DNA from: Alphaproteobacteria bacterium
GTDB taxonomy: Bacteria > Pseudomonadota > Alphaproteobacteria > TMED109
Assembly (NCBI GenBank): GCA_022819905.1
Contig: JAJEGJ010000087.1
Span: 1 to 64,000, forward strand
Length of the DNA stretch: 64,000 bases
Direction of reading: 5' to 3'
The notes beneath the pieces are model-generated. The model was not told the origin of the DNA, searched no databases, and saw nothing but the letters and a program-made list of their open reading frames with translations. Shown here piece after piece: positions 1,125 through 18,188 of this stretch. The translations under genes were made by a program, and so were the position numbers. The stretch's first letter is position 1, and each line of letters starts with the position of its first letter.

Positions 1125-2225
1125 TCAGGCTTCGTAGAGGTTTCCAGCAACCACATCTTCATTCCACTCCAGGCCCATCCCAGGCACATTCGGGATGTGC
1201 AAATGGCTGTCCTTGATCTTGTAGGGCTTTTCCAGGATCGGGTCGGCCCAGTCCTGCCATTCCAGCCAATGCGCGGTTTCGGTCACCCGCATCACATGGG
1301 CGCCGACTTCGGGATAGAGGTGCGTTGACATCGGGATTCCGGCCGCGCCGGCGATGGCTGCAGCGCGCATCCATCCGGTGACACCGCCGATGCGCATAAA
1401 GTCCGGCATCACATAGTCGGAGGCCCGGCAATGCAGTGCCTTATGCAGGTCGCGCGGTCCGTAAAAGTTCTCGCCAATCTGCAGCGGCGTCTTAAGCTCC
1501 CGGGTGAGTTGGGCATATCCATCGAAATTATCGTAGACAACCGGCTCTTCCAGCCAGGTCAATCCAAGGTCGTCGAGCATGTGGCACCGGCGCAATGCCT
1601 CCGCCATGTCCAGACCCTGGTTGAAATCGATCATCAAATGGATGTCTTCACCAACCGCCTGACGAACCGCATCGATCGTGGCGAGATCGTCCTTGGGATC
1701 GTCCCTGCCAAGACGCAGTTTCACGCCATCGAACTGTCCCTCATCGCGGATCTCGACCGCCTCGGCGGCAACCTTGGAAGGCGACTGGAGCCAGAGCCCA
1801 TTGCTGTTGTACGCGCGCACCGGTCCGGGCGAACCGCCGAGCAATGTGCACAACGGCAAGCCGGCAGCCCTCGCCAATGCGTCCCAGGCTGCCATGTCGA
1901 TGCCGGAAACAGCGATCATCGTCATGCCTTCGTACCCTACAAAATGCAGCGACTTTCGCGTAGTTTCGTAGATCTCGGCCGGCGCAAGCTTTTGGCCTTT
2001 GAGCATCGCCCCCATGTCACACAAGGCTGGCACGAGATAGTTCATCGACTTGACGATGTAAGGCTCGAGATAGGCGCGCCCGACGACACCTTCCTCGGTC
2101 TTCAGGTCGATCAGGATGAGAGGCCAGTCCGTAATGGTCGCGATCTTCGCGACCACAGGGCGATTCAGCTTGAGAACGACAGCACGCACATCGACGCTGT
2201 GGAAGGTCAGTGATTCGAGCGGCAT
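1125..2225 (-). CDS. Mandelate-racemase-like enolase-superfamily enzyme (probable sugar-acid dehydratase)
   Basis: A 366-residue enolase-superfamily protein whose whole length follows the mandelate racemase pattern, including 'SGIDMAAWDALA', 'IGGVTGWMRAAA' and 'TAHWLEW'. Metal ligands are Asp200 (IDFNQ), Glu226 (LEEP) and Glu252 (IGENF). The Asp275/His302 dyad (MPDFMRIGG, STHLYPE) and Glu322 are present. The second Lys of the KxK motif of mandelate racemase is replaced: the sequence is K169-L-R171, so the S-face base is altered and a one-base acid-sugar dehydration is more likely than racemisation. The gene lies downstream of KDG kinase and KDPG aldolase and next to a porin, which suggests it makes 2-keto-3-deoxy acids for that pathway. 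A GGAG sits upstream of the ATG. The substrate cannot be told from sequence. Confidence 0.88.
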   Translation of the reverse strand: MPLESLTFHSVDVRAVVLKLNRPVVAKIATITDWPLILIDLKTEEGVVGRAYLEPYIVKSMNYLVPALCDMGAMLKGQKLAPAEIYETTRKSLHFVGYEGMTMIAVSGIDMAAWDALARAAGLPLCTLLGGSPGPVRAYNSNGLWLQSPSKVAAEAVEIRDEGQFDGVKLRLGRDDPKDDLATIDAVRQAVGEDIHLMIDFNQGLDMAEALRRCHMLDDLGLTWLEEPVVYDNFDGYAQLTRELKTPLQIGENFYGPRDLHKALHCRASDYVMPDFMRIGGVTGWMRAAAIAGAAGIPMSTHLYPEVGAHVMRVTETAHWLEWQDWADPILEKPYKIKDSHLHIPNVPGMGLEWNEDVVAGNLYEA

Positions 2226-2569
2226 CTAACGGGACTCCATCGGTCTTGCTGAGGCTCTCAGCGCGTGAGCGAGCATTTGGCTTGCGGGATTGCCGAACGG
2301 CATTTTCGGCCGGGCCAGAGTAACCCAGTTTCATGACATGTTGGCCGGCTCACCGGCTGAGCAACGATCGGCACGCTAATCCTCTGAATTTCCTTAGCAC
2401 CGTGTGGGCAAACTCGGGCGCTATGCGTCGGCCCACAAGAAATCACTGATCGAGACCCGGGCCGCGTCGTCCGCCAGTGCTGAAGGTGCCATCCAGCGGA
2501 CCAGCTCGCGAGGCCGAGTGGGCGCTTGAACTGAGAAGGGCTATCGGCCAGCTCGCCTTCAACTGGCTT
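2226..2569. other. Intergenic stretch without a recognisable gene
   Basis: The gap between the racemase-like gene and the porin contains only short readings that do not resemble a family. It probably holds a promoter for the downstream gene, but no convincing -35/-10 pair was seen. Confidence 0.5.
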
Positions 2570-3796
2570 TCAGTAGGTGTAACTGAGTGAGAGCCACACC
2601 TTGGTCGTGTCTGAACCGCGAGTATCGGCTTCGTAACGGGCAATTTTCAGCGTTGTACTGAAGTGCTCGGCGAACTTCCGTGTGATCACCAGATCCAGTT
2701 CAGAGCCGTAGTCGTCCCCGCCGACGGCGGTGCCGAAATGATGATAGACGCCAACAAGTTGGGTACCCGCAAGTGGTCCATGGCCTTTTGGCCTGTACAC
2801 GAGAGTCGCGTAGGAGTCGTTGATTCCGTCAGGGGGCGTGGTGAGGAACTTGTCGGCGAAACCTTGGAACGCGTGAAGCGTCGCCAACGGTGTCTGGAAG
2901 GCCAGCATGCCGTCCCCGCGAAGGCTTTCGTGACCGACCTTGACGGTCACGTCCCCGAGACGCAAGCCCGGCTCGACAGCCCAATAGCCGAAATCGAACT
3001 TATTCGGATTGCCAGCATGGTCGCTCTGTCGAGCAGCCTCCAGCGTGTAGAGCCATGTGACACCGGAACCGGCATCGAACGTACCTGCCAAGCGCACCCC
3101 GAAGGTTTTGGAGGAGAGTGCCGGTGCCTCCTCGATGTCCAGGAGATAGCCATAGCCGACCAGCTTAGCCGGCGCAGACCCGGCGTAGTTCAGACGGAAG
3201 AAATGGTTTCGGGTGTCGAAGGTGCCGTTGCGCGAATCCGCCCCGAAGACCCGGTTGACGCGGTAGACGTAGGTGTACTCGCCCTTCAGACCAGAAATGC
3301 CGGTCGCCGTCAGGCGCAGCCCATCGAAAGTCTGCTCGTTCTGCCGCCAGCCGACATTGCCGACAAACCTGTCGTTGTCGTACTTGATCCGGTGGCGCCC
3401 GACGCGAGCGCTGGCGCCTGGTGCGAGCAACATGCTGATCCACGCGCGGTTGATCTCGGTGACCTGGGGATCTGCGATCACCGGGTAGGCGGTCCGTGCA
3501 GTGACGGTGTCATTGAAGGTGCCGCTCTCGAGGTGGGCGACATTTTCGAGCTCGAGCAGCGCCTGAACCGGAAGCGATGCGGAGGTCGAATAGCCCACTC
3601 GAGTACGGAGCGTATGCGCAGCCGCTTCTTCGGGGAGGTCATCCTGGCTGACCCGCTCGTACCGGTATCGGAGGCTGAAGCTGGCTTGGCCGTCGGCAAA
3701 TGCTTCGGACCCGGCGGTTTGGGCGCGCACATCACCCACCGGCATCAGCGCCATCGCAAGGCCAGCCGCGATGAACAGGCGAAAGGTCGCGGTCAT
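2570..3796 (-). CDS. Outer-membrane beta-barrel porin, alginate-export-like
   Basis: A 408-residue protein with a clear signal peptide (about residues 1-25, ending DVRAQ) followed by alternating polar/hydrophobic strands and a C-terminal strand ending 'VWLSLSYTY', the terminal aromatic expected of BAM-assembled barrels. The pattern 'FSLRYRYERVSQDD', 'LRTRVGYSTS', 'VGRHRIKYDNDRFVG' and 'NEQTFDGLRL' matches the alginate-export/porin-like family found in proteobacterial uptake loci. It probably lets an acidic sugar cross the outer membrane for the adjacent dehydratase-KdgK-Eda pathway. No inner-membrane transporter is present in the cluster, so that component is elsewhere or lost. Confidence 0.82.
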   Translation of the reverse strand: MTATFRLFIAAGLAMALMPVGDVRAQTAGSEAFADGQASFSLRYRYERVSQDDLPEEAAAHTLRTRVGYSTSASLPVQALLELENVAHLESGTFNDTVTARTAYPVIADPQVTEINRAWISMLLAPGASARVGRHRIKYDNDRFVGNVGWRQNEQTFDGLRLTATGISGLKGEYTYVYRVNRVFGADSRNGTFDTRNHFFRLNYAGSAPAKLVGYGYLLDIEEAPALSSKTFGVRLAGTFDAGSGVTWLYTLEAARQSDHAGNPNKFDFGYWAVEPGLRLGDVTVKVGHESLRGDGMLAFQTPLATLHAFQGFADKFLTTPPDGINDSYATLVYRPKGHGPLAGTQLVGVYHHFGTAVGGDDYGSELDLVITRKFAEHFSTTLKIARYEADTRGSDTTKVWLSLSYTY

Positions 3797-4767
3797 GTTC
3801 GTCGAACTTCTCCTCCGGGTTCCTCCCGAACTGCTTGTGGGCCGCTCGGCGCTCCAGCCAGGACACCGGTACAGTAATGGCCGCCCAACCGGGCTGGGCG
3901 TTCGGCGGCGGGCACACGTAGCAAAATGATAGCCGGGCCATCGGTCTCCAGTGCCCTTTCGGCCATATCCGCGAGCGTAGTGGGGGTCACGATCGTCACC
4001 TGCATCGCCGGGTCGCAGCCTGATGCGATCAGGGTCGCCTGTACGGCGGGCGACGCGCGAACTGCCATGTAGAGAGCCATGGTGGTTCCCGGTGCGAGAT
4101 GTCGACCCCAGTCACGACCCACGTCGCCCTGCCGCGTCTGGCCGGTGGTCTAGACGACTGCGTTGGTCGTGCCTCGTTCGGTCGGGAACTCGCTCGCCGA
4201 GGCGGCGGCCGAGACCGCCGCCGTCACACCCGGAACGATCTCCCATGCGATCCCGGCTTCCTGCAGCGCGGATACCGCTTCGGCCACATCAGCAATCTTC
4301 TTGCCCTGATCCATGGCCGTCTTGCGCTCCGCCAGTGCGGCCTTGGTCGCCGTCAGTTCTTTCTGCAGCCGCGAGAACTGGTGGAAACGGGCGATCACCA
4401 CGTCAAGGATCGGCTTGATTCGCTTTTTCTGTAATCCGTCGACCACATAGGCGCATACTACGGCCTAGACCGCGGCAATTGCCGACGAATCGTCGGACCT
4501 GTCGACAAACTTGGCGACGGTCCGCTTCATCGGGCTCGAGGCGACCGCAGGCGCTTCGAGCACCTCGCGATTCGGATCCTCAATGTCAATGAGAACCACA
4601 TCGGGGGCGATCTCGGCACGTCTGTGGGCGAGCCCGGTGTCGTCGCCAAAGACGAAAACTTGATGGTTGGCTTCGTCGCGCAACGCGTCAACGGTCATCA
4701 ACGCGCGTTCGCGGTCTCGCCCGACTACGACGATCTTCGGAGCGGGAAACAAGCTGGCGTCAGACAT
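3793..4767 (-). pseudogene. Decayed chimera of nasT (ANTAR response regulator) and cobA/SUMT
   Basis: One reading frame runs from an ATG at 4767 to 3793, broken by in-frame TAG codons at 4465-4467 and 4150-4152. The first part is NasT: receiver 'PKIVVVGRDRERA', phospho-acceptor region 'PDVVLIDIEDPNRE', then TAG where Glu is usual, then 'AYVVDGLQKKRIKPILDV'. The ANTAR domain has lost its centre: 'ALAERK' joins directly to 'TAMDQGKKIADVAEAV'. It then switches to uroporphyrinogen-III methyltransferase ('EAGIAWEIVPGVTAAVSAA'), meets the second TAG, and resumes 'TTGQTRQGD' and 'PGTTMALYMAVRASP'. NasT and SUMT are both nitrate-assimilation genes, so this is a deletion scar of a nas locus. The open frame overlaps the porin start by 4 bp. 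Confidence 0.85.
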
Positions 4768-4835
4768 GCATCGATCCGTCGAGAGCGTTGTGTTCGCAGA
4801 CGAGTCCCGGGCGCCCCCTCTGTCGATTGACAGTT

Positions 4836-5510
4836 TCAATCGGTCCGGGCAATGAGTGTGACCGCTTCCTCAGCAAGGCGTGTGATCTCGTCGAACCTGG
4901 ATGCCCGCACGAGTGCCGGACTTACGACCCAAGACCCGCCGCATGCGAGGACATTGGACAGGGCGAGATAGTCGCGGAGGTTATTCGGGCCGATGCCGCC
5001 AGTCGGCAGGAACCGGATCGAGGGATACGGGCCGGACAACGCTTTCAGGAACGACACGCCGCCGCTGGCCTCGGCAGGAAAGAACTTGACGACCTCAAGA
5101 CCGAAGCCCATGGCCTGCTCGACGCCGGTTGGATTGTTGATGCCTGGAAGCACAGGCACTTCCAGCTTGATGCAGGCTTCGACGACCGCGGGATTGAACC
5201 CGGGCGTGACGACAAACTGGCTACCAGCTCGATGGGCCATCTCCACCTGATCGACATTGAGAATTGTCCCGGCTCCCACCAGCATCTGCGGAAGCTCCTC
5301 CCGCAAGATCTGGATCGAAGCCGCCGCCGCTTCCGATCTGAACGTGATTTCGGCAACGGGCAAACCGCCCGCCGTCAGCGCTTTCGCAAGAGGTAGAGCA
5401 ACTTCGCAGCCGTCCAGTTCGACGACCGGCACTACCCCAGCCTCGCCGAGCCGGGCCAAGACATTCCGTGCATTGTCGGTCATGGTCTTCGATCCGAATT
5501 GGGTTTGCAT
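4836..5510 (-). CDS. eda: 2-keto-3-deoxy-6-phosphogluconate aldolase
   Basis: A 224-residue class I aldolase. The KDPG/KHG aldolase signature is complete: the catalytic Glu in 'VAEITFRS', 'VGAGTILN', 'FVVTPGFNP', and the Schiff-base Lys in 'LEVVKFFPAE', followed by 'FLPTGGIGP' for phosphate binding. It cleaves KDPG into pyruvate and glyceraldehyde-3-phosphate in the cytoplasm, the last step of the Entner-Doudoroff route. A second possible start is the internal ATG at residue 10 (MTDNARN), which fits the family length better. It lies 48 bp downstream of the KDG kinase gene on the same strand, so the two form an operon. Confidence 0.95.
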   Translation of the reverse strand: MQTQFGSKTMTDNARNVLARLGEAGVVPVVELDGCEVALPLAKALTAGGLPVAEITFRSEAAAASIQILREELPQMLVGAGTILNVDQVEMAHRAGSQFVVTPGFNPAVVEACIKLEVPVLPGINNPTGVEQAMGFGLEVVKFFPAEASGGVSFLKALSGPYPSIRFLPTGGIGPNNLRDYLALSNVLACGGSWVVSPALVRASRFDEITRLAEEAVTLIARTD

Positions 5511-5558
5511 CGGGACGGCTCCGACCGGGTGTTTGACCGCTGGGATCGGACGCTCGTT

Positions 5559-6461
5559 TCAGCTGCGCGCAATCAAGGCCCCCGACGCGCCGACCACCCG
5601 GGAGGCGATCTTGTGGCCGGCCAGGAGGCATCGCCCTTCATCTTCGCCGCGAAGGAGCGCCGCCAGGTAACCGCCGTTGAAGCTGTCTCCCGCCGCAGTC
5701 GTATCGACGACCCCGGGTGCGGGGGCGAATTCGGGATGCGCGCCGCGCGCGAGCCGCGGCGACACCGGGCCGAGCGCTCCCCGCTTGATGGCGCAGGCAT
5801 GCCAGTCTGAAGAGGCAAATCGCGCAATTACGGCCTCTTCGTCCGCATCGCCGAACAAGGCGATTTCGTCGTCAACCGAAGGCAGGGCAATGTCCGCAAC
5901 CTGCCACATCTCCCGGACTGAGCGGCGCGCGGTCTCGGCGTCCTCCCAGAGTTGCGGCCGGTAGTTCGAATCGAAGGCCACATGGCAGGCGCTGCGCCCC
6001 CGCAACTCGCGCAAATGCGCGATGAGGCGCTGGCGGGCCGAAGGATGCACGATGGCCAGCGTTATGGCCGACAGATAAACAACCCTCGCGGGCGGCAGGG
6101 AAACAGGGGGCTCGGCGGACGCGAACAGTCGGCGCGCCGCCGAGTTGCTGCGCCAGTAGTGAAAGATGCGTTCGCCGGCACTGTCGGTCGAGACGGTGTA
6201 AACGCCGAGGTTGCGTTCACGATCGAAGCCGACCTGGGAAACATCGATCCCCTCTTTCTTCGCGACGCTCAGGAAGGCATGGGAAAGGGGATCACAGCCG
6301 ACACGCGTGCAATAGCCGATGCGGGCCGATGGGTCGGACTCCCTGACGCAATAGACCGCGGTGTTGAACGTGTCGCCGGCAAACCCGACGCGGAAGCCGG
6401 CGGTCGGATCTTGTCGGATCTCGGCCATGACTTCGCCGATGGCGAGCAGATCCACTGTCAC
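5559..6461 (-). CDS. kdgK: 2-keto-3-deoxygluconate kinase (PfkB family)
   Basis: A PfkB/ribokinase-fold sugar kinase. The N-terminal 'DLLAIGEVMAEIR' and 'FAGDTFNTAVY' are characteristic of KDG kinases, and the C-terminal 'VDTTAAGDSFNGGYL' holds the catalytic Asp of the anion hole (here AAGD rather than GAGD). The start at GTG 6461 was chosen because the family begins just before LLAIGE; an upstream TTG at 6512 would add 17 unrelated residues. It phosphorylates KDG to KDPG, the substrate of the aldolase directly downstream, making a two-step pathway fed by the enolase-superfamily dehydratase at the end of the cluster. Confidence 0.9.
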   Translation of the reverse strand: MTVDLLAIGEVMAEIRQDPTAGFRVGFAGDTFNTAVYCVRESDPSARIGYCTRVGCDPLSHAFLSVAKKEGIDVSQVGFDRERNLGVYTVSTDSAGERIFHYWRSNSAARRLFASAEPPVSLPPARVVYLSAITLAIVHPSARQRLIAHLRELRGRSACHVAFDSNYRPQLWEDAETARRSVREMWQVADIALPSVDDEIALFGDADEEAVIARFASSDWHACAIKRGALGPVSPRLARGAHPEFAPAPGVVDTTAAGDSFNGGYLAALLRGEDEGRCLLAGHKIASRVVGASGALIARS

Positions 6462-7141
6462 CAGTCCGGTGCGAAGGCAGACATACTCGATTCCCAGTGC
6501 TCTGTAAGGCAATTGTCGCGGGTGACACCGGCCGGTCGTTATCGTCCTGCGTCCGTTCTACAGCATCTTCGAATATGTGATCGGTCGTTGCGACCAGCCG
6601 CTGCCGTGGAGTGCCCCTGCCGACCCGCATGCAGGCCACTTGAACACGGCGATCTGTGGGTGCGTTTCTGCCTACGGCCTCGGTTGGCGCGCAGTCCTCT
6701 CTCGGCACGCCCGTTCCGCCGCCCATGAATCGCCTGAGAACGGATCTCTCGGCAACGCCATCACGTCATGACAGCTCAGGTGAGTGTCGATTTGTTCGGC
6801 AACCTGTCGATAGTAATTTCACAAGAAATGAGAAAACTCTCTCAAGCATCTATTTATGCTTTGGTTTAAGATATGCCCTTGCTTTCACAGCCGTTGAGGC
6901 CGGTATCTTCGGGTAAACCCGGTCTGCGACGGCGCGACCTACTCGTTGTGGAGCAAGCACACCGCTGAACGCACCCGTGCTGCCCGGCCACGCTAGGCCA
7001 TCACGTCCCCAGTTCACCGGCGCAATACGTGCGCGCGGTCAATTGGTGCTCGCCCGGCACGGACGGCGCCACAACAGAAACGCTGTGCGGCGGCAACGAT
7101 TTCCTCGCGATCAGCGGTTACCTCGACGGGCGCAATCATCA
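6462..7141. other. Intergenic region with AT-rich segment and inverted repeat
   Basis: No gene is recognisable over about 680 bp. The part around 6780-6900 is clearly AT-richer than its surroundings and contains a perfect inverted repeat, AAGCAT (6844-6849), CTATTT, ATGCTT (6856-6861), which could be an operator for the divergently placed kdgK-eda operon. The assignment to a regulator is a guess. Confidence 0.4.
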
Positions 7142-7255: not shown

Positions 7256-8995
7256 CTACGGAAGCGCGAACACCCAGATCACGCCACCCTGCGGTACGTG
7301 CACGTCGTACCCGGGAATGATGCCGCGCAGGACGTCCTGCTTGCGCTCGGCGTCCACGCCCCAGCCCGACTGTACGGCAACGTACTGCTTGCCATCGACG
7401 CTGTAGGTGCTCGGCGAAGCGGTCACACCCGAATTCGTCGGGTATTCCCACAGCGTTTCGCCGGTCGCCGCATCATGGGCACGGAACATGTGGTCGTTGG
7501 TGCCGCCGGAGAACAGCACACCGCCACCGGTCGCCAGAATCGGACCCCAGTTCTGGTGTGCGAAGTCCTTGCTCCACACTTCCTCGCCACTGTCGACGTT
7601 CCAGGCCTGGATTTCCCCGATGTGGTCCCACCCCTCACGGAGGCTGAACCCGCCGAGGATCACCGGGATCGGCACCCCGATGTACAGCTCGCCCGGCACG
7701 TACTTCTCTTCGGCACCTTCCAGGGTGCTGCAGAGGTTCTCGTTCGCCGGAATGTAGAGCAGGCCCGTGTCCGGGCTGTAGGCCGAATACGGCCAGTCCT
7801 TGCCGCCCCAGAGCGACGGACAGAACAGCGCTGCCTTCCCGGTGCCCGGCCAGTGATTGTCGTCATACGACACGCGGCCCGTGTCGGGATCGAACGCAGT
7901 GATCACGTTGCTGTAGACGTAGCCCCACGCGTCGACGAACTCGATCGGACCTTCAGCGGTCGGCTTCAGAAGGTAGATGTGACCGTTGCGGGCCACGTTG
8001 ACGAGTGCCTTGAAGGTCTCCCCGTCACGGGTGACGTCGTAGATGAGCGGGGGTGAGACCTCATCCCAGTCCCAGGAATCGTTCCAGTGGTACTGGTGGT
8101 GTCCCACGAGCGCCCCGGATTCCACGTCCACCGCAATGACCGACGTCGTGTAGAGGTTGTCCATGCCGCCGCGGGTGTCACCCATCCAGGGCGCGGCGTT
8201 GCCGATACCCCAATAGGAAAGACCCGTGTCGGGGTCGTAGTTCCCCGTCAGCCACACCGATCCTCCGCCGGTCTTCCAGGCGTCGTCGTCCGGCCAGGTA
8301 TCGCTCCCTGGCTCGCCTGGCGCCGGCACCGTGTAGGTACGCCACGCCTCTTCACCGGACTCCGCATCGTAGGCTGCGACGTAACCGCGGATGCCGTATT
8401 CACCGCCGGACACGCCCACCATGATCTTGCCCTTGGCAGCCAGCGGAGCGATCGTCATGTAGTAGCCCGCCTGGTAGTCGTCGACGGCGACCTCCCAGAT
8501 CACCTCGCCGGTTCGAGCATCGAGCGCGACCAGGAAGCAGTCGGTGAGCGCCACGTAGAGCCTGTCGCCTAGCAGCGCCGGTCCACGGTTGGTGGGGTGC
8601 AGCTGGAAGAGGTCTTCCGGCAGCTCTCTCTGAAAACGCCACAGCCGCTTGCCGGTGGCCGCATCGAGAGCCAGGACCTGGTTCATCGGCGTGGTGACAT
8701 ACATCACGCCGTCGTTGACCAGCGGCGGTGCTTGGTGTCCTTCCTGAACGCCAGTCGAGAACAGCCAGGCCGGTTGCAGAGACCCGACGTTCGAGGTGTT
8801 GATCTGGTCGAGCGGGCTGTACCCCCACCCCTCCCGGTTGCCCCGAACCTGGAGCCAGTTGTGCGGCTCCGGGTTGTCCAGTCGATCCTCGGTGACCGGG
8901 TTGTAGTTCTCGATGGCGTCGGCGCTGGTCGCGCTGCCCACCATCAGGGCGAGAAGTGCGGCCGCTACGGCCGTGCCCGTCAATAGACTCCTCAT
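7256..8995 (-). CDS. Periplasmic PQQ-dependent alcohol dehydrogenase (methanol/ethanol type), lanthanide-type active site
   Basis: A 579-residue quinoprotein with a Sec signal peptide (MRSLLTGTAV to SATSADA) and repeated beta-propeller W motifs such as 'LALDAATGKRLWRF' and 'LVALDARTGEVIWE'. The start at 8995 has GGGGAG upstream. Active-site positions are readable: Glu199 (SGGEYGIRGY), Asn266 (YWGIGNAAPW) and catalytic Asp309 in 'WNDSWDWDEVSPP'. Asp311, two residues after Asp309, is the extra carboxylate that marks lanthanide-dependent XoxF/ExaF-type enzymes. The vicinal Cys-Cys pair near 'NRGPAL' is absent (QLHPTNRG), which is unusual. There is no fused cytochrome c domain. It oxidises an alcohol or sugar in the periplasm; its electrons may go to the Rieske protein encoded just upstream. 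The substrate is unknown. Confidence 0.92.
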   Translation of the reverse strand: MRSLLTGTAVAAALLALMVGSATSADAIENYNPVTEDRLDNPEPHNWLQVRGNREGWGYSPLDQINTSNVGSLQPAWLFSTGVQEGHQAPPLVNDGVMYVTTPMNQVLALDAATGKRLWRFQRELPEDLFQLHPTNRGPALLGDRLYVALTDCFLVALDARTGEVIWEVAVDDYQAGYYMTIAPLAAKGKIMVGVSGGEYGIRGYVAAYDAESGEEAWRTYTVPAPGEPGSDTWPDDDAWKTGGGSVWLTGNYDPDTGLSYWGIGNAAPWMGDTRGGMDNLYTTSVIAVDVESGALVGHHQYHWNDSWDWDEVSPPLIYDVTRDGETFKALVNVARNGHIYLLKPTAEGPIEFVDAWGYVYSNVITAFDPDTGRVSYDDNHWPGTGKAALFCPSLWGGKDWPYSAYSPDTGLLYIPANENLCSTLEGAEEKYVPGELYIGVPIPVILGGFSLREGWDHIGEIQAWNVDSGEEVWSKDFAHQNWGPILATGGGVLFSGGTNDHMFRAHDAATGETLWEYPTNSGVTASPSTYSVDGKQYVAVQSGWGVDAERKQDVLRGIIPGYDVHVPQGGVIWVFALP

Positions 8996-9110
8996 GTGGA
9001 TCTCCCCAATGGTTGTCCTTTGTGGGATTGGTTGCATGGTGAATGGGGCGCAGAAGCACCGCCCGGGCGTCTCTTCCCACGGAGACACGCCCGACATTCA
9101 CGTCGCGACA

Positions 9111-9713
9111 TCAATTTCCGACCCGTCCACTGAAGCCGCCTGCGATCCTGAGCTCGTTTTCGCCCTCCAATCGCAGCGGCAGCGTGGGAAGTTTCCGCAC
9201 GGCCGGTCCGTTCACGACCTTGCCGGCGTTCCACGGGTCGAAGCGGGACCGATGGCAGAAGCAGAACAACGCCTCGGCCTGCTCGTCCCACGCGGTCACT
9301 GGACACTGCTGGTGTGTGCAGGTGGCCGAAAAGGCAATGATCCCGTCCACGGTGCCCGGTCGGGTCCGGTCGTCAAATCGGGAAGGATCCACCCGCAGCA
9401 ACGTGATCTGGTTGAGGCGTGATCCATCCCGGATCACGCCGGAAGACGGATCACGTGGATAGGCGATAAAGGGCTGCTCTCCCAGGGAGAGATCGGCGGG
9501 CGCGATGACTTCGCCATCGCGATCGCCACCGAAGAACGTCAGTTGGTCCCCGTCCTGGGGGCGTTGTCGTGCGATCTCCGCCGCGTCGGCGTCGGTTATC
9601 CAGGCGTCGGGGGAAACCAGTCCCACTGCGATGCCAAGGCCAAGAACACCCTGCATCACACGACGACGATTCCAACGGATACCGAAGCTTCTCACAGGCC
9701 TGAATGCCTTCAT
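9111..9713 (-). CDS. TAT-exported Rieske [2Fe-2S] protein
   Basis: A 200-residue protein. The N-terminus 'NRRRVMQGVLGLGIAVGLV' is a twin-arginine signal. The Rieske motifs are C132-T-H134-QQ-C137 and C151-F-C153-H154: Cys132, His134, Cys151 and His154 would bind the cluster, and Cys137/Cys153 form the disulphide seen in high-potential Rieske proteins. The start at 9713 has GGGGGAG upstream. The folded cluster is exported through TAT to the periplasm. The gene lies 115 bp upstream of the PQQ dehydrogenase on the same strand, which suggests it carries electrons for that enzyme in place of the usual cytochrome c. A role as the orphan small subunit of another oxidase cannot be excluded. Confidence 0.9.
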   Translation of the reverse strand: MKAFRPVRSFGIRWNRRRVMQGVLGLGIAVGLVSPDAWITDADAAEIARQRPQDGDQLTFFGGDRDGEVIAPADLSLGEQPFIAYPRDPSSGVIRDGSRLNQITLLRVDPSRFDDRTRPGTVDGIIAFSATCTHQQCPVTAWDEQAEALFCFCHRSRFDPWNAGKVVNGPAVRKLPTLPLRLEGENELRIAGGFSGRVGN

Positions 9714-10319: not shown

Positions 10320-11807
10320 GTGACGGTGAACGCTTCGGAGCGGGCCGGCCTCCGCTCGACCCTGCGCCGGGCAGGCCGGCGAATTCGGCTGGCAAGAGGT
10401 ATTTCCGGCGCGGTTCTGGCTGCGCTTGCCGTTCATGTCGTCCTGATACCGTGGCTGCTGCTCAAGGCGGTGTGGCCGATCGACGGGACCGAGTACGGGC
10501 TCGCGGTGATCGCGGCGACCGCGCTCGGGGCAATGGCCGGTTTCCTCGTTCCGGTTCCGATTCGGCTAGCTGCCAGGACCCTGGACCGGAACCTCGGACT
10601 GGATGAGCGACTGGCCGCCGCCCTCGAGTTTGAAACCAGCACCCATCTACCGCTGGCCGGTCCACTCCTGTCCGACGCCGCCGCTCACGCCGGCAGGCTC
10701 TCGGTACCGACGGGCGTCCCGCTGGCGCCGTCCTCCCGGCCGGCACACGCTGCCCTTGCCGTCCTCGCCGTCTCCACCCTCCTCGTCTGGCTTCCGCCAT
10801 TCCCCCTCGTCTCCCCTGCGTCCGTCCAAGCGGCGCCGGAGGCGCAACCCGTCGCCGGCACCAGCCCCGTGGAGCTTGGAGTGACGATGGCTCCGATCAC
10901 TCCCCTGCGGCGACCGCCCCGGCAGCCGGTTCAGGAGACGCCTGCCGTCGAGTTCCGGGACTCTCCGGTCGAAATCGATCCCGAAACCCTCGAGCATGCC
11001 CTCCGCCTGTCCGACCAGCGCCGTCCGTTCCACGATCTCGACGATCGCCTGCCCAGTCTGCGGGTCGGGGGAGCCCCGGGGGACATCCTCCCGCTCCCGG
11101 CCAACACCATCTCCCGGCCCGACACCGAACTGTCGGCCCGGCGCTACTCGCGGGCCGAGGCGGCCGCGGCCCTGGGCGAGCTGGAATCCCTGTGGGGCGG
11201 CGCGCGGCAGCGCGACATGACCCGGCCGCCGCCGCTGGAGGTCGTGCGGGAGCGCCCAGAGGAGGGCGGCCCGGCCGGCCAGCCGGACGGGGCCGAGCCC
11301 GTGCAGCGCGAACCTTCGGCGGACGACCCACCGGAGACCATGCCGCTCTTTCCCGACGAGGAGCGCCTGACCCCGCAGAGCGACCGCTTCGCGAGCCTGC
11401 CTGAGTCGACCGACACCGCGACGAGCGATGTGCCGCCGTGGCCCAAGCACGGGCCCGGCGAGGGCATCGACGATGACAGCCCGAGAGACGAGGAAGGAAC
11501 CGGACGAAACGCCGGGGAACCCGGCACCGGTTTCGCCGTCCTGCCGCCCGGCTCGATTGCGGACCGGATCGATACGGAACAGGCACCGGAAGTCGAGCTC
11601 GCGGGCCTGCGCCAGGATGGCGCCCATCGGTCGTTCCTCGCGGATTCGGCGGGACAGGTCGCTCGAGGGCAGGCCCGGCGCCCCATGCAGGACATGCGGG
11701 CACGGTTCACGCGGCGCGCCGAGCAGACGCTGAGCGAGGAGTGGATTCCGCTGGACGCCCGGAGCCGGATCAAGCGGTACTTCCAGGCCATTCAGACGCG
11801 ACGATGA
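10320..11807 (+). CDS. Membrane protein of unknown function, first gene of a MoxR/DUF58/vWA operon
   Basis: A 495-residue protein starting at GTG 10320 (VTVNASERAG) after a GAGGCGG. Two adjoining hydrophobic segments lie near residues 22-70 (ISGAVLAALAVHVVLIPWLL, then AVIAATALGAMAGFLV), and a third lies near 140-160 (AHAALAVLAVSTLLVWLPPF). Between them is 'AARTLDRNLGLDERLAAALE', a pattern also seen near the N-terminus of DUF4175-like membrane proteins. The long C-terminal part is rich in Pro, Glu and Arg and looks disordered, ending in a basic helix. Its stop overlaps the next ATG by 4 bp. In mxa clusters the corresponding positions hold small membrane proteins (MxaA, MxaK), but no residue-level similarity can be claimed. 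Confidence 0.75.
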   Translation: MTVNASERAGLRSTLRRAGRRIRLARGISGAVLAALAVHVVLIPWLLLKAVWPIDGTEYGLAVIAATALGAMAGFLVPVPIRLAARTLDRNLGLDERLAAALEFETSTHLPLAGPLLSDAAAHAGRLSVPTGVPLAPSSRPAHAALAVLAVSTLLVWLPPFPLVSPASVQAAPEAQPVAGTSPVELGVTMAPITPLRRPPRQPVQETPAVEFRDSPVEIDPETLEHALRLSDQRRPFHDLDDRLPSLRVGGAPGDILPLPANTISRPDTELSARRYSRAEAAAALGELESLWGGARQRDMTRPPPLEVVRERPEEGGPAGQPDGAEPVQREPSADDPPETMPLFPDEERLTPQSDRFASLPESTDTATSDVPPWPKHGPGEGIDDDSPRDEEGTGRNAGEPGTGFAVLPPGSIADRIDTEQAPEVELAGLRQDGAHRSFLADSAGQVARGQARRPMQDMRARFTRRAEQTLSEEWIPLDARSRIKRYFQAIQTRR

Positions 11808-12706
11808 ACATCACGGAGCGCTTTGACGCGGCCTTCCTCTACCGGCTTGCCCGATTGCGGCTGCAGTCCGCGCGCCTGTTCGATGGGCGCATTCCCGGCG
11901 ACCGGCGCAGCCCGCGCTACGGCGCAAGCCTGGAGTTCGTCGACGTCCGCCCCTACGCGCCGGGGGACGACACGCGCTACGTGGACTGGAACGTCTACCG
12001 GCGCCTGGACCGGCTGGTCGTCAAGCGCTTCCGCGAACATCGGGATCTCTGCTTGCATCTCCTCGTCGACACCAGCGCATCCATGGGGGCGGGCACGCCA
12101 TCCAAGCTAGACCACGGCCTGCGAGCCGGGGCCGTGCTCGCCTGCGTCGCGCTCGCGAACCACGAACGTGTCTCCGTGGGACTGCTCGCCGACGATGGGC
12201 AGCGCGACCGCGGGATGACACCGCGTCGTGGTCATCGTCGGATGGCGCCCCTCCTGGACCGGCTCGGCGTCATCCGGGCGGGCGGGCGCACCCGGCTCGG
12301 AGACGCCCTGACCGAGCACGCGCGTTCGTCGCTTGCGCCGGGCGTGGCCGTCATCATCTCCGATCTCATCGAGCCGGTGGAACGCATCGAGGCCGGTCTT
12401 CGAGCGCTGCTTGCCCGCGGGCTGGATGCGCGCGTTGTGCAGGTGCTCGCCAACGACGAGATCTCGCCCGACATCGACGGCGACGTGGAGCTCCTCGATG
12501 TTGAAGAACCCTCGCCGGCAACGGCGAAGAGGTTGACCGCCGAGCGTGCGACCCACAAGCGATACGGGGAGAATCTCACCCGTTTCCTCGACGAACGGGT
12601 AGCGCTGTGCCGGCGCCTCCAGGCACCGTACGTGCGACTGGCCGGCACCGGCACGTCCGACGTGCAACTCCTGCAGCAGCTGCGCTCGGCAGGATTTCTC
12701 GCATGA
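11804..12706 (+). CDS. DUF58 domain protein (MxaS-like)
   Basis: A 300-residue protein with the DUF58 core 'VRPYAPGDDTRYVDWNVYRR', followed by 'KRFREHRDLCLHLLVDTSASM', which is also a vWA-like metal-binding strand. DUF58 proteins accompany MoxR AAA+ ATPases and vWA proteins; in methylotrophs the member is MxaS, needed to assemble active methanol dehydrogenase. It starts within the stop of the preceding gene and ends within the start of the next (ATGA in both cases), so translation is probably coupled along the operon. Confidence 0.92.
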   Translation: MNITERFDAAFLYRLARLRLQSARLFDGRIPGDRRSPRYGASLEFVDVRPYAPGDDTRYVDWNVYRRLDRLVVKRFREHRDLCLHLLVDTSASMGAGTPSKLDHGLRAGAVLACVALANHERVSVGLLADDGQRDRGMTPRRGHRRMAPLLDRLGVIRAGGRTRLGDALTEHARSSLAPGVAVIISDLIEPVERIEAGLRALLARGLDARVVQVLANDEISPDIDGDVELLDVEEPSPATAKRLTAERATHKRYGENLTRFLDERVALCRRLQAPYVRLAGTGTSDVQLLQQLRSAGFLA

Positions 12707-15700
12707 GCCTCGCCAACCCGGCGGCGCTCTGGCTGCTCGCGGCCGTTCCGCTGGTCCTCCTCCTGCACATGTACCGCGTGCAGCGCCGGGAGGTCCGGGT
12801 CACCACCCTGTCGCTCTGGGAGGCGGTCGACGACCGCCGCGGCTCGCCGCGTCCGGCCTGGCTCCGGCTGCGTCCGAGCGCTTCCCTCGGGCTGCAGCTC
12901 CTCGCCGTCGTCGCGGCGGCGCTGGCGATCGCCAACCCGCTCTGGTCGACCACCCAGTCCGGCTGGCCCCGGGTGGTCATGATAGTCGACACCTCGGCCA
13001 GCATGCAGGCGACCGACGTCCCTGAAGGGCGCTTCGAGGCCGCCCGCCGGATGGCCCGCAGCGTCGCCGAGGGGCTCGAGCGGAGCCAGTCCGGGATGCT
13101 CATGACCTCCCGGGGGGAGATCGTGGTCCCCTTCACCACGGATACCGACCGTCTCCGGGACGGGATCGATGCCCTCGCCGCGACCCACCGGTCGGATCGC
13201 ATGTCCGATGCCGTGGGCATCGCCCGCCGTCTCGTCGCCACCGGCCCCGCCGCGCGCATCCACGTCTTCACCGACGCCGCGGAGCCGTCCACGGAGTCGA
13301 CCTCCGAGACGCCCCTCGTCTGGCACCTGGTCGGCGAGTCGTCGGCCAATACCGGCATCACCGAGTTCGCGCTTCGCCGGGACTCCGCGCCCGAGGTGGA
13401 CTACCAGCTCTACATCACCATCGCGAACTTCGATGATGCCGCGCGCGCCGTCGAGTTCGAGGTTGCGTTCAAAGACGTCCTGCTCCATCAGCAGGGGCTG
13501 TCGCTGCCAGCCGGGGTGCAAAGAGGCGTGGTGCTGCCCTTCCGGCACGACGCCGCGGGGGTGCTCACCGCCCGCATCGCTGGCGGCGACGCGCTGGGTG
13601 CCGACGACGTTGTGCACGCGGTGCTGCCGGCGCCGCGCTCGCGACGAATCGCGCTGGTCGGTGAAGGCGACCTGTTCCTGGAGGAAGCGCTGCGGGCGGA
13701 CGGTGCCGGCCAGCTGTTCCGGGCCCCGTCCGTCGCAGCCGCCCACGCCGCCGGAGCCGATGTTGTGGTGATCGATGGCGCCGCCCCCGAACGCCTGCCG
13801 CCGGGGCGGTACCTGCTCCTGGGGTCGCTCCCCGCCGATGCACCCATTGCCGCCAGCGGTCGCGTCGAACGGCCCGCCGTCACCAGCTGGCACCAGGCCC
13901 ATCCGGTGATGCGCGACGTGGACCTGACGGACCTGCTGGTCGAGGAAGCGCTCGCCGTGGAGCGCAAGGAGCCGGAGAGCCGCGGCACCGTGCTCGCGGA
14001 GTCGAGCGACACGCTGCTGATGTACGCGTGGAACGACGAGGCGGCGGAGGACGCGGCCGACCGGAACACCGGGCCGCGCGGAAGCGGCGCCGACAGCCGC
14101 GAGGGCGCGGGGCCAGGCGGTGAGGCCGACGGGTCTGTCCGGGCCGTGTTCCTCGGGTTTCGTTCCCTGCAGTCGGACCTGCGGGTGCGGGTCGCCTTTC
14201 CCCTCCTCGTCGGCAACGCGCTCGAATGGCTGCATCCCGTGCGGCTGGACTCGCTGCCGGTGCAGTACCGCACGGGAGCGCCGGTTCCAGGCGAGCATCC
14301 CGACATCGGGCTGCTCACCGGCATTCATGCGCGCCCCGATGCCGACGACGGCGCGCCGCCCCAGATCGCGATCAACCTTCTCGACGCGTCTGAATCCAAT
14401 ATTGCTCCTGGCAGGACCGGGCCCGCGTCCGGCGCGGCCGCTTCCGACCTGGCGCCTCCGACCTACCCGCACCAGCAGGCGCTCTGGCTGATCCTCGCCC
14501 TGATCGCGCTCGCCGCGGGCGGCGCCGAACTCGCCCTCTACCTGTACCGCCGGCGCCGGCAGGCGTCGCCCCTGGCGACCGGCCTTCGGCTCGTCACCCT
14601 CGCCCTGGCGGCGGCCGCGCTGTGGCAGCCCCGTCTGCTGCTGGATACGGATGCCCGCCACGTGGTGTTCGTCGTCGACGAATCCGCGAGCGTCGGAGCG
14701 GGCGCCGCGGATGCGGCAGCTCACGCGGCGGAACTGGCCGCAGGCCATGCCGGCCCGGACGACACCATCGGGATTGTCGGATTCAGTGGCGATGCGAGGG
14801 TGATCGCGCCCGGCGACGGCGTGGCCGGACCTGTCGCGCCCCTACCCGACCCGGAGCCGGACGGGGCGTCGACCCCGGGCCTCGCGCACGGCGCGACCGA
14901 CCTGGCACTGGCCCTGCGACGCGCACAGACGCTCCTGCCCGAAACGGGTGATCGCCGCGTGGTGCTGTTGTCCGACGGTCACGACACGGTTTCGGATCGG
15001 TCCCGCATTGCCCAGAGCGCGCACCGCAGCGGGATCGCGATCCATCCGGTCGTGATCGGGGGCCCCGCTCCCGGAGAGATTTCCGTGGAACGCGTCGACG
15101 TCCCCGCCGACGTTCGGCGCGGTGAGCCGTTCGACATTCGGGTCACGGTCCGCGCTAACCAGGACGGGATCGCGCAAATCGGCCTGTTTCGCGATGGTTC
15201 GCTGGTGCGATCGGGCCAGATACAGCTCCGCCGCGGGGACAACCCCCTGGTCCACCGCGAGGTGATGGACCGCGAGGGGTTCGGCATCTTCGAGGCGCGA
15301 ATCGAATCCGCCGAGGACGGGGAGGCATGCAACAACCACGCGGCCGGCGTGGTTGCTGTCCGACCGGCGTTGCGCGCCCTGTTGTTCGATCCAGTGCCGG
15401 CCGAGGCGGAGTTCCTCGCCCGGGCCCTCAGGACCCAGAACATCGATGTCAGCGTGTATGCGGAGCCGGCCGCGTTCGCGGCCGCTTCCGAGGTAGCCGG
15501 CCCGGTCGGACCGGAGATGTTCGCCGGTTTCGACGTGGTGCTGCTCAGCAACCTCTCGTCCCTTGCCCTGACGGACGCGGAGATGCGTGCACTGCGCGAT
15601 TTCGTGCGCGATCGCGGCGGCGGACTGGTGATGCTGGGTGGCGAGCGGAGCTTCGGTCTGGGCGGGTACTACGACACGCCGGTCGAGGAAGCGCTTCCGG

Positions 15701-17153
15701 TCAGGATGGTGGCCCGGCGCAAGCTCGATGCGCCCTCCACCGCCATCGTGCTGGTCATTGACCGATCCGGGAGCATGAACCAGGCCGATGGCGACCATCA
15801 CCGCCTCGCGCTCGCCCGCGAAGCCGCGCAACGCGCGGTTTCGGTGATGGATCACCGCACCGAGCTCGGGGTGCTCGCCTTCGACATGAAGTCGGACTGG
15901 GTCGTGCCCATTGGCCCGATCGGGGCGCCGGGCAGGACGCTTGACGCCATCGCGTCGATGCGCGCCGGAGGCGGCGGCACGCAGCTCATGTGGGGCCTCC
16001 AGAAGGCGTACCGGGCCATCGACCGCAGTCCCGCCGTCATCCGCCACGTGATCATCCTGTCGGACGGCGAGGTGTACTCCTCGAAGTTTCCGGAGCTTCT
16101 CGGGCGCATGGTCCGGAAGAAGATCACGGTCTCCGCTGTCACCATCGGCTCGGAAACGGGCAGGCCGCAACTGCAGAGCATCAGCGAGATGGGCCAGGGC
16201 CGGTTCTATTTCACGAGCGATGCATCCAAGCTGCCGCGGATCTTCACCATGGAAACCCAGCTCGCGACCCGCAGCGGCTTGGTCGAGGAATCGTTCCGGC
16301 CCGTGGCGCGGGCTCTCCATCACGAGGTTGCAAGGGGTAACGTGCTTGATGCGGTACCGGTGCTCGATGGCTATGTCGCGACCACGGCGCGGCGCGGCGT
16401 GGACGTGCTCCTGGAGAGCCCGGCGCAGGATCCGGTCCTCGCCGTCTGGCGCTTCGGCCTCGGCAGGACCGCGGTGTTCACGTCCGAGATCAAGCCGCGC
16501 TGGGGCGCGCAATGGGTCGAGTGGGAGTCACTCGGGCCGCTGTTTGCGCAACTCGTCCGCTGGGCGGCACGGAGCGAGCGCCGGGACGACCTGGCCGTCC
16601 GGACCAACGTCGACACGGACCAGGTGGACATCACGGTCGATGTCGCCGGCAAGGACGGGCGCCTGGTCAATTTCGCGGACGTGCAGGCCGAGGTGATCCG
16701 GCCCGACCGGGAGAGCCGCGTTCTGCAACTCCGTCAGGTCGCGCCGGGACGTCACCAGGGAACGGTCGCCGCCGCCGGGCATGGTGCGTACCTGGTCGCC
16801 GTCTCGATGAACCATCAAGCCGGAACCGGGTTCGCCCCGGACGATGATCGAACCCGCGGGTCGGGTCTCCGCGACCCGGATGCCGGTGCCGACGTCCTCT
16901 CCACGATCACGGGCGCCGTGGTCTCCTACCCGGACGAGTATCGCCATCGCCCACCCGACCGCACCTTCCTGAATATCCTTGCGGCGCAGACCGGGGGACA
17001 GGTGCTTGCCCACGCAGCAGATGTATTCGAGCTGCCACGACAGCCGTATCCGCATCCCGTTCCCATTCGGGAGTGGCTGCTGGCAGCTGCACTCGCCATG
17101 CTGCTGCTGGACCTCGGTGCCCGGTGGCGTGCCAATCGCATGAGGGAGAAGAC

Positions 17154-17157
<4 letters not shown>
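12703..17157 (+). CDS. Giant BatA/MxaC-like protein with three von Willebrand A domains
   Basis: A 1484-residue membrane protein that looks like two proteins fused. The first half (1-585) is BatA-like: an N-terminal membrane helix (LANPAALWLLAAVPLVLLLH), a second helix near 65-85, and a vWA domain with the MIDAS start VDTSAS near residue 98. A further helix pair (585-640) begins the second half: vWA with VDESAS near 658, a glutamine-amidotransferase-like region (887-1000, GGGLVMLGGERSFGLGGYY), a third vWA with IDRSGS near 1020, and a C-terminal helix (WLLAAALAMLLLDLGA). Separate BatA-type and amidotransferase-vWA proteins are common; three MIDAS domains on one chain is unusual. The first ATG overlaps the stop before it. 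A large extracytoplasmic scaffold working with MoxR and DUF58 is inferred. Confidence 0.9.

Positions 17158-18188
<1,031 letters not shown>

Follow-up and report, generated by a model that had tools for sequence, protein, structure and literature searches.

PQQ-dependent alcohol dehydrogenases pass electrons to dedicated c-type cytochromes, with a rare vicinal disulphide in the path, and Mennenga 2009 is reported to have linked the disulphide ring of ExaA to the transfer of electrons towards cytochrome c550 (both as given in parts of PMC12997753 and PMC8546591). The lanthanide methanol dehydrogenase system XoxF–XoxG shares with the enzyme described here the PQQ propeller and the second Asp for a lanthanide, but XoxF systems have the Cys pair and a dedicated cytochrome c, whereas the present locus has neither and instead carries a gene for a Rieske [2Fe-2S] protein. 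We found no description of such a dehydrogenase–Rieske pair in the open text of PubMed Central; an earlier mention in Keltjens 2014 is possible. Within the portions available, PMC11697101 proposes for Bathyarchaeia proteins with PQQ domains and Rieske proteins located inside the cell, an arrangement that differs from the pair studied here, and PMC11996626, a classification of marine PQQ enzymes, gave no hits for the terms Rieske and cytochrome. Both proteins belong to known families; their pairing is apparently undescribed, and we infer for the Rieske protein the role of electron acceptor.

The DNA analysed, referred to below as the window, is a stretch of 64,000 nucleotides. A preliminary description had noted a PQQ dehydrogenase gene with a Rieske gene upstream of it, and both are present at that place on the reverse strand, with the following features.

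7256..8995, (-) strand: PQQ dehydrogenase gene; 579 aa, Sec-type N-terminus, eight-bladed propeller
8063..8074, (-) strand: WDWD (WDFD in the aligned PedH), which holds the catalytic Asp and the second Asp typical of lanthanide-type enzymes
8198..8200, (-) strand: GNAAPW, whose Asn aligns with a metal ligand of PedH; Asn invariant in the dehydrogenase alignment (A4)
8399..8401, (-) strand: Glu of GGEYG, metal/PQQ-site residue by alignment with PedH; invariant in A4
8582..8602, (-) strand: LHPTNRG at the position of the vicinal Cys pair, its His aligned with the His of mGDH QHVTCRG
9111..9713, (-) strand: gene for a Rieske [2Fe-2S] protein of 200 aa; 115 bp separate it from the dehydrogenase gene downstream
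9246..9263, (-) strand: CFCHRS, second cluster motif; Cys and His ligands, middle Cys for the disulphide, Ser
9303..9320, (-) strand: CTHQQC, first cluster motif; Cys and His ligands, second Cys for the disulphide
9663..9668, (-) strand: Arg-Arg of a twin-arginine-type signal, preceding a hydrophobic stretch

The dehydrogenase probably starts at the ATG at 8995, which is preceded by GGGGAG; the first start of the open frame lies at 9097. Its product scored 539.9 bits against TIGR03075 (NCBIfam; PQQ-dependent dehydrogenase, methanol/ethanol family), above the cut-off of 480.05, and 185.5 bits against TIGR03074 (membrane-bound PQQ glucose/quinate dehydrogenase), below the cut-off of 832.65. The AlphaFold model (mean pLDDT 91.5) found its best structural match in PedH, a lanthanide enzyme (6zcw; Z 52.1, rmsd 1.7, 529 aligned), with which the sequence shares 36-38% identity. 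Alignment and model agree on an eight-bladed propeller with the Glu, Asn and Asp of the PQQ/metal site, and alignment with PedH shows the second Asp of the lanthanide-type D-x-D motif as WDWD, both Asp being invariant in A4 (57 relatives). The metal is probably a lanthanide, and pqqE, a PQQ synthesis gene, is present in the same genome. The protein thus described would be a periplasmic enzyme that oxidises an alcohol or a sugar with PQQ as cofactor. PedH, ExaA and ExaF, which work with cytochrome c550, have in common with it the fold, the TIGR03075 family and periplasmic export, and the lanthanide-type Asp pair is as in PedH; the window enzyme, however, lacks their vicinal Cys pair and has a Rieske gene where they have a cytochrome gene.

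The neighbouring gene product scored 38.9 bits against PF00355 (Rieske [2Fe-2S]; cut-off 20.3), a family that all 62 of its aligned relatives also match. Both cluster motifs and the disulphide Cys pair attributed to it earlier are indeed there, and the four cluster ligands and both disulphide Cys are invariant in 62/62 aligned relatives (alignment A3). As to the label of TAT protein, Arg-Arg is kept in 62/62 relatives and the NCBIfam TAT model TIGR01409 matches 1/62; TAT targeting is proposed from the Arg-Arg motif, as recognised by inspection. The model of the Rieske protein (pLDDT 90.4) matched best the Thermus Rieske protein 1nyk (Z 26.2, rmsd 1.6, 154 aligned), followed by actinobacterial bc-complex Rieske chains and then by arsenite oxidase small subunits (Z about 14; AioB, Z 14.3, 118 aligned).

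Although the Thermus/actinobacterial bc-complex Rieske subunits are closest in sequence (E 1.3e-23) as well as in solved fold, no cytochrome b gene lies beside the window Rieske gene. The genome's own bc1 Rieske gene sits on a different contig (C78), adjoining cytochrome b, which rules out the window protein as the bc1 subunit, and the score against the proteobacterial bc1 Rieske model TIGR01416 was 29.5 bits against a cut-off of 97.4. In arsenite oxidase AioBA, too, a small Rieske protein is exported and its gene adjoins that of the periplasmic catalytic partner, but that partner is a Mo enzyme, and the window protein stays below the cut-off of the arsenite oxidase small-subunit model TIGR02694 (55.4 bits versus 95.65). 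None of the specific NCBIfam cut-offs was reached, and identity as AioB or as a dioxygenase ferredoxin is unsupported by them. Rieske proteins of the same type are also found on plasmids of Thermus and Meiothermus, where they adjoin TauE/SafE family genes (L230 5863-6456, L231 5842-6441); no PQQ dehydrogenase lies beside these nearest Thermus-type plasmid relatives in the regions inspected.

We then compared the surroundings of the six full-length PQQ dehydrogenases of the source genome. The other five each have a same-strand CxxCH ORF within 184 bp, with a PF13442 cytochrome match at each site. On the window's contig (C11) there is no cytochrome c gene by PF13442 or PF00034, which rules out a dedicated cytochrome gene next door to the window dehydrogenase, and positions 1-25000 of the window hold no CxxCH ORF of at least 80 aa. 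The vicinal Cys pair and the adjacent cytochrome c gene, the marks of cytochrome c-linked type I quinoprotein ADHs, are both absent from this locus. The same contrast emerged from a survey of the class, where a same-strand CxxCH ORF within 300 bp accompanied 0/10 Rieske-paired dehydrogenases versus 11/15 next-best ones, all CC-type (Fisher p = 0.0005, kinship not corrected). Among the named loci, taken as the best 80 of 579 candidates, a CxxCH ORF neighbour was seen in 0/67 paired and 1/13 unpaired cases. The earlier claim of a Rieske protein instead of cytochrome c therefore stands as far as the contig and the strong linkage of the two genes are concerned, but not in excluding a cytochrome elsewhere: the source genome holds many c-type cytochromes able in principle to act in trans, and one of these might receive the electrons, either directly or after the Rieske protein.

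The linkage of the two genes was also seen in samples of other genomes. A search of 385 genomes of the class with the Rieske protein gave some match at E 1e-3 in 108, of which 10 were full-length (E 5e-27 or better; the remainder 2e-7 or weaker), and in 10/10 of these a dehydrogenase homologue, 54-96% identical, adjoins the Rieske gene. The reverse search with the dehydrogenase covered the same number of genomes, with up to three candidates scored per genome and those at E 1e-100 or better listed, and returned 10 hits (E 3.5e-212 or better; the remainder 1.6e-111 or weaker). Rieske-positive and dehydrogenase-positive genomes are the same 10, with the genes adjacent in all. In a phylum sample of 398 genomes the Rieske protein was detected at E 1e-20 in 12, next to a dehydrogenase gene in 12/12, although these are not 12 independent cases because 8/12 come from a single genus and the class sample already contains two of the genomes; both samples include close relatives.

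Beyond these samples, a Rieske gene on the same strand lies near the dehydrogenase gene in 67/80 named relatives (best 80 of 579 candidates), nearly always directly upstream; it lies 0.56-0.57 kb downstream in 2 of the 67 (L123, L131), and in another locus (L134) it lies 0.6 kb upstream of a cut dehydrogenase frame. The named loci span Pseudomonadota, Rokuibacteriota, Myxococcota, Gemmatimonadota and Acidobacteriota, with one MAG labelled Acidimicrobiia. A full-length Rieske homologue is encoded elsewhere in 2/13 genomes of unpaired members; none was detected in the other 11/13, several of which are incomplete MAGs. Distances in the dehydrogenase and Rieske trees correlate (r = 0.77, 65 pairs; 0/2000 permutations as high), with r = 0.47 among distant pairs. 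Chance neighbourhood is ruled out by the linkage in class, phylum and named relatives, and the pair is a conserved module that recurs in many unrelated bacteria. One of its carriers is a MAG titled Klebsiella pneumoniae (L063), a label that is probably wrong because the tree groups it with environmental Gammaproteobacteria.

Plasmids carry both types of locus. Of 20 plasmid records with a good dehydrogenase hit, 9 have the Rieske gene and the other 11 have a CC enzyme with a cytochrome ORF. The nine pairs include Paracoccus and Alteromonas, with the gene order reversed and WDWA rather than WDWD. Among 31 plasmid Rieske records we inspected the nine with a dehydrogenase and six more regions, one of them a second place in a record already covered. 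Methylobacterium aquaticum 22A has two dehydrogenase–Rieske pairs on one plasmid (L201, L232). On a Deinococcus aetherius plasmid (L199 5323-7617) a PQQ dehydrogenase with the Cys pair has a Rieske gene alongside, a possible intermediate.

The vicinal Cys pair had been reported missing from the window enzyme, and alignment confirms this: LHPTNRG stands where the solved relative PedH has CCDVINRG. His, Thr, Arg and Gly of this motif are invariant in the 57 rows of A4, and H-x-T-(N/S/T)-R-G occurs in 78/78 named relatives from the best 80 of 579 candidates, a near copy (L061) and a truncated sequence (L134) having been left out of the motif count and the tree. The E. coli membrane-bound PQQ glucose dehydrogenase (mGDH, Gcd) reads QHVTCRG at the aligned place and so shares His-x-Thr-x-Arg-Gly at the position of the MDH-type disulphide. 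This enzyme, which is not known to use cytochrome c, passes its electrons to ubiquinone, and it offers a precedent for a His at the disulphide position. Unlike Gcd, the window enzyme has no membrane domain and falls far under the TIGR03074 cut-off.

A quick tree of 109 rows, which has some long branches, places the 88 H-x-T enzymes together (SH-aLRT 100) and separates them from the 18 CC enzymes. The 13 members of this clade without a Rieske neighbour fall into one subgroup of 11 and two single cases. Motif and partner do not follow each other strictly. The Deinococcus pair keeps CC despite its adjacent Rieske gene, 2/5 cytochrome-linked PQQ dehydrogenases of the source genome lack CC, and 13/80 named relatives (best 80 of 579) have neither CC nor an adjacent Rieske gene. 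A strict rule by which a missing Cys pair means a Rieske partner is ruled out by these exceptions in both directions, and because two cytochrome-paired dehydrogenases of this very genome lack CC, loss of the Cys pair and change of acceptor are not closely coupled. For the clade as a whole, lack of the Cys pair is typical but not strict.

Several genes around the pair bear on its possible substrate and on the extent of the module.

1125-2225, (-) strand: enolase-superfamily dehydratase, same strand as the pair
2570-3796, (-) strand: alginate-export porin, same strand as the pair
4836-5510, (-) strand: KDPG aldolase, same strand as the pair
5559-6512, (-) strand: PfkB sugar kinase (KDG kinase), same strand as the pair
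11741-18188, (+) strand: DUF58, BatA/VWA and MoxR-type AAA genes, diverging from the Rieske gene

The sugar-acid route encoded at 1125-6512 might hint at the substrate of the dehydrogenase; the kinase and the aldolase are kept beside the pair only in close relatives. We did not count the KDG kinase, KDPG aldolase, DUF58 and BatA/VWA genes as parts of the module, because their homologues were found only at the loci of close relatives (L046, L061) or in other copies of the same regions (L141, L142), nor the MoxR gene, with homologues in 5 of the loci compared. On Paracoccus yeei plasmids, VWA and BatD genes lie just upstream of that species' own pair. Between porin and aldolase (3793-4839, (-) strand), pieces resembling an ANTAR regulator and a uroporphyrinogen methyltransferase occupy different frames and look broken, by reading alone. 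Downstream of the pair, other genomes have either a Mo aldehyde dehydrogenase, its 2Fe-2S subunit being present in 17 loci, or an Aldedh gene, present in 9, which suggests an alcohol-to-acid route there. In Entotheonella the sole full-length Rieske homologue is far from the clade dehydrogenase and adjoins a gene for a cytochrome c–SBP fusion (L216 5208-7096), with a XoxF-like gene nearby.

Our preferred reading, to which we assign a probability of roughly 0.7, is that dehydrogenase and Rieske protein work together as a periplasmic oxidation module in which the latter replaces the usual cytochrome c. The PQQ dehydrogenase, probably with a lanthanide, would oxidise an alcohol or a sugar, and the reduced PQQ would release single electrons in turn to the Rieske [2Fe-2S] protein. 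This small exported protein would act as the immediate acceptor in place of cytochrome c and feed the respiratory chain, probably via a c-type cytochrome. In most of the clade, His-x-Thr stands in place of the vicinal disulphide over PQQ, which in related enzymes has a part in passing electrons to cytochrome c; the pattern fits an enzyme with a changed electron outlet. Motifs and neighbouring genes suggest the metal and the substrate, and direct transfer and the next carrier are likewise inferred. For that carrier a c-type cytochrome is likely because the genome has many of them together with a bc1-type cytochrome b, and because a distant Rieske gene of the family, in Entotheonella, has a cytochrome c gene as its neighbour.

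The Rieske protein might instead be a tightly bound, AioB-like redox subunit that connects the dehydrogenase with a soluble cytochrome c whose gene lies elsewhere. This would push the cytochrome one step back, and it overlaps with our preferred reading, from which it differs in postulating a stable complex; we think it rather unlikely but well worth weighing. In AioBA, too, the small Rieske gene precedes the catalytic gene, and the window protein's model does match AioB. A complex of arsenite oxidase with cytochrome c552 has been solved (8ed4), the unlinked Rieske gene of Entotheonella adjoins the cytochrome c–SBP fusion gene, and c-type cytochromes abound in the source genome. The dehydrogenase, however, has its own Sec-type N-terminus, and the best structural match of its putative subunit is the Thermus bc-complex Rieske protein, not AioB.

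We regard as improbable a role of the Rieske protein in maturation or protection, outside the electron flow of turnover, with the gene linkage reflecting co-transfer. Such co-transfer would by itself yield correlated trees, as expected of any pair inherited in this way, but this reading sits poorly with six cluster residues invariant in 62/62 relatives and with a Rieske gene that occupies the place of cytochrome c in related enzymes. It is very improbable, in our estimate, that the Rieske protein serves another cluster enzyme, such as a Mo aldehyde dehydrogenase, with the PQQ dehydrogenase relying on a cytochrome c in trans. A xanthine dehydrogenase/aldehyde oxidase-type 2Fe-2S subunit does lie nearby in 17 loci and in Roseomonas, yet no Mo enzyme was detected in most paired loci or near the window pair, and the constant partner of the Rieske protein is the dehydrogenase.

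On the reading of the Rieske protein as replacement for cytochrome c, we lean slightly towards a broader proposal, namely that a class of dehydrogenases reaching from Pseudomonadota to Deinococcota exchanged cytochrome c for an exported Rieske acceptor, after which most of its members lost the disulphide. If so, the Deinococcus pair, which combines CC with a Rieske gene, would be a surviving intermediate and the clade a natural test of the purpose of the vicinal disulphide, whose role would become testable by comparing natural enzymes and by single swaps. A large clade with both cytochrome and disulphide exchanged would mean that PQQ dehydrogenases have a modular electron outlet. The pair points to a little-noticed electron route, by which an exported iron-sulphur carrier would join periplasmic carbon oxidation; generic Rieske names in annotation hide such a carrier, and in the plasmid records public annotation gives generic names to both genes.
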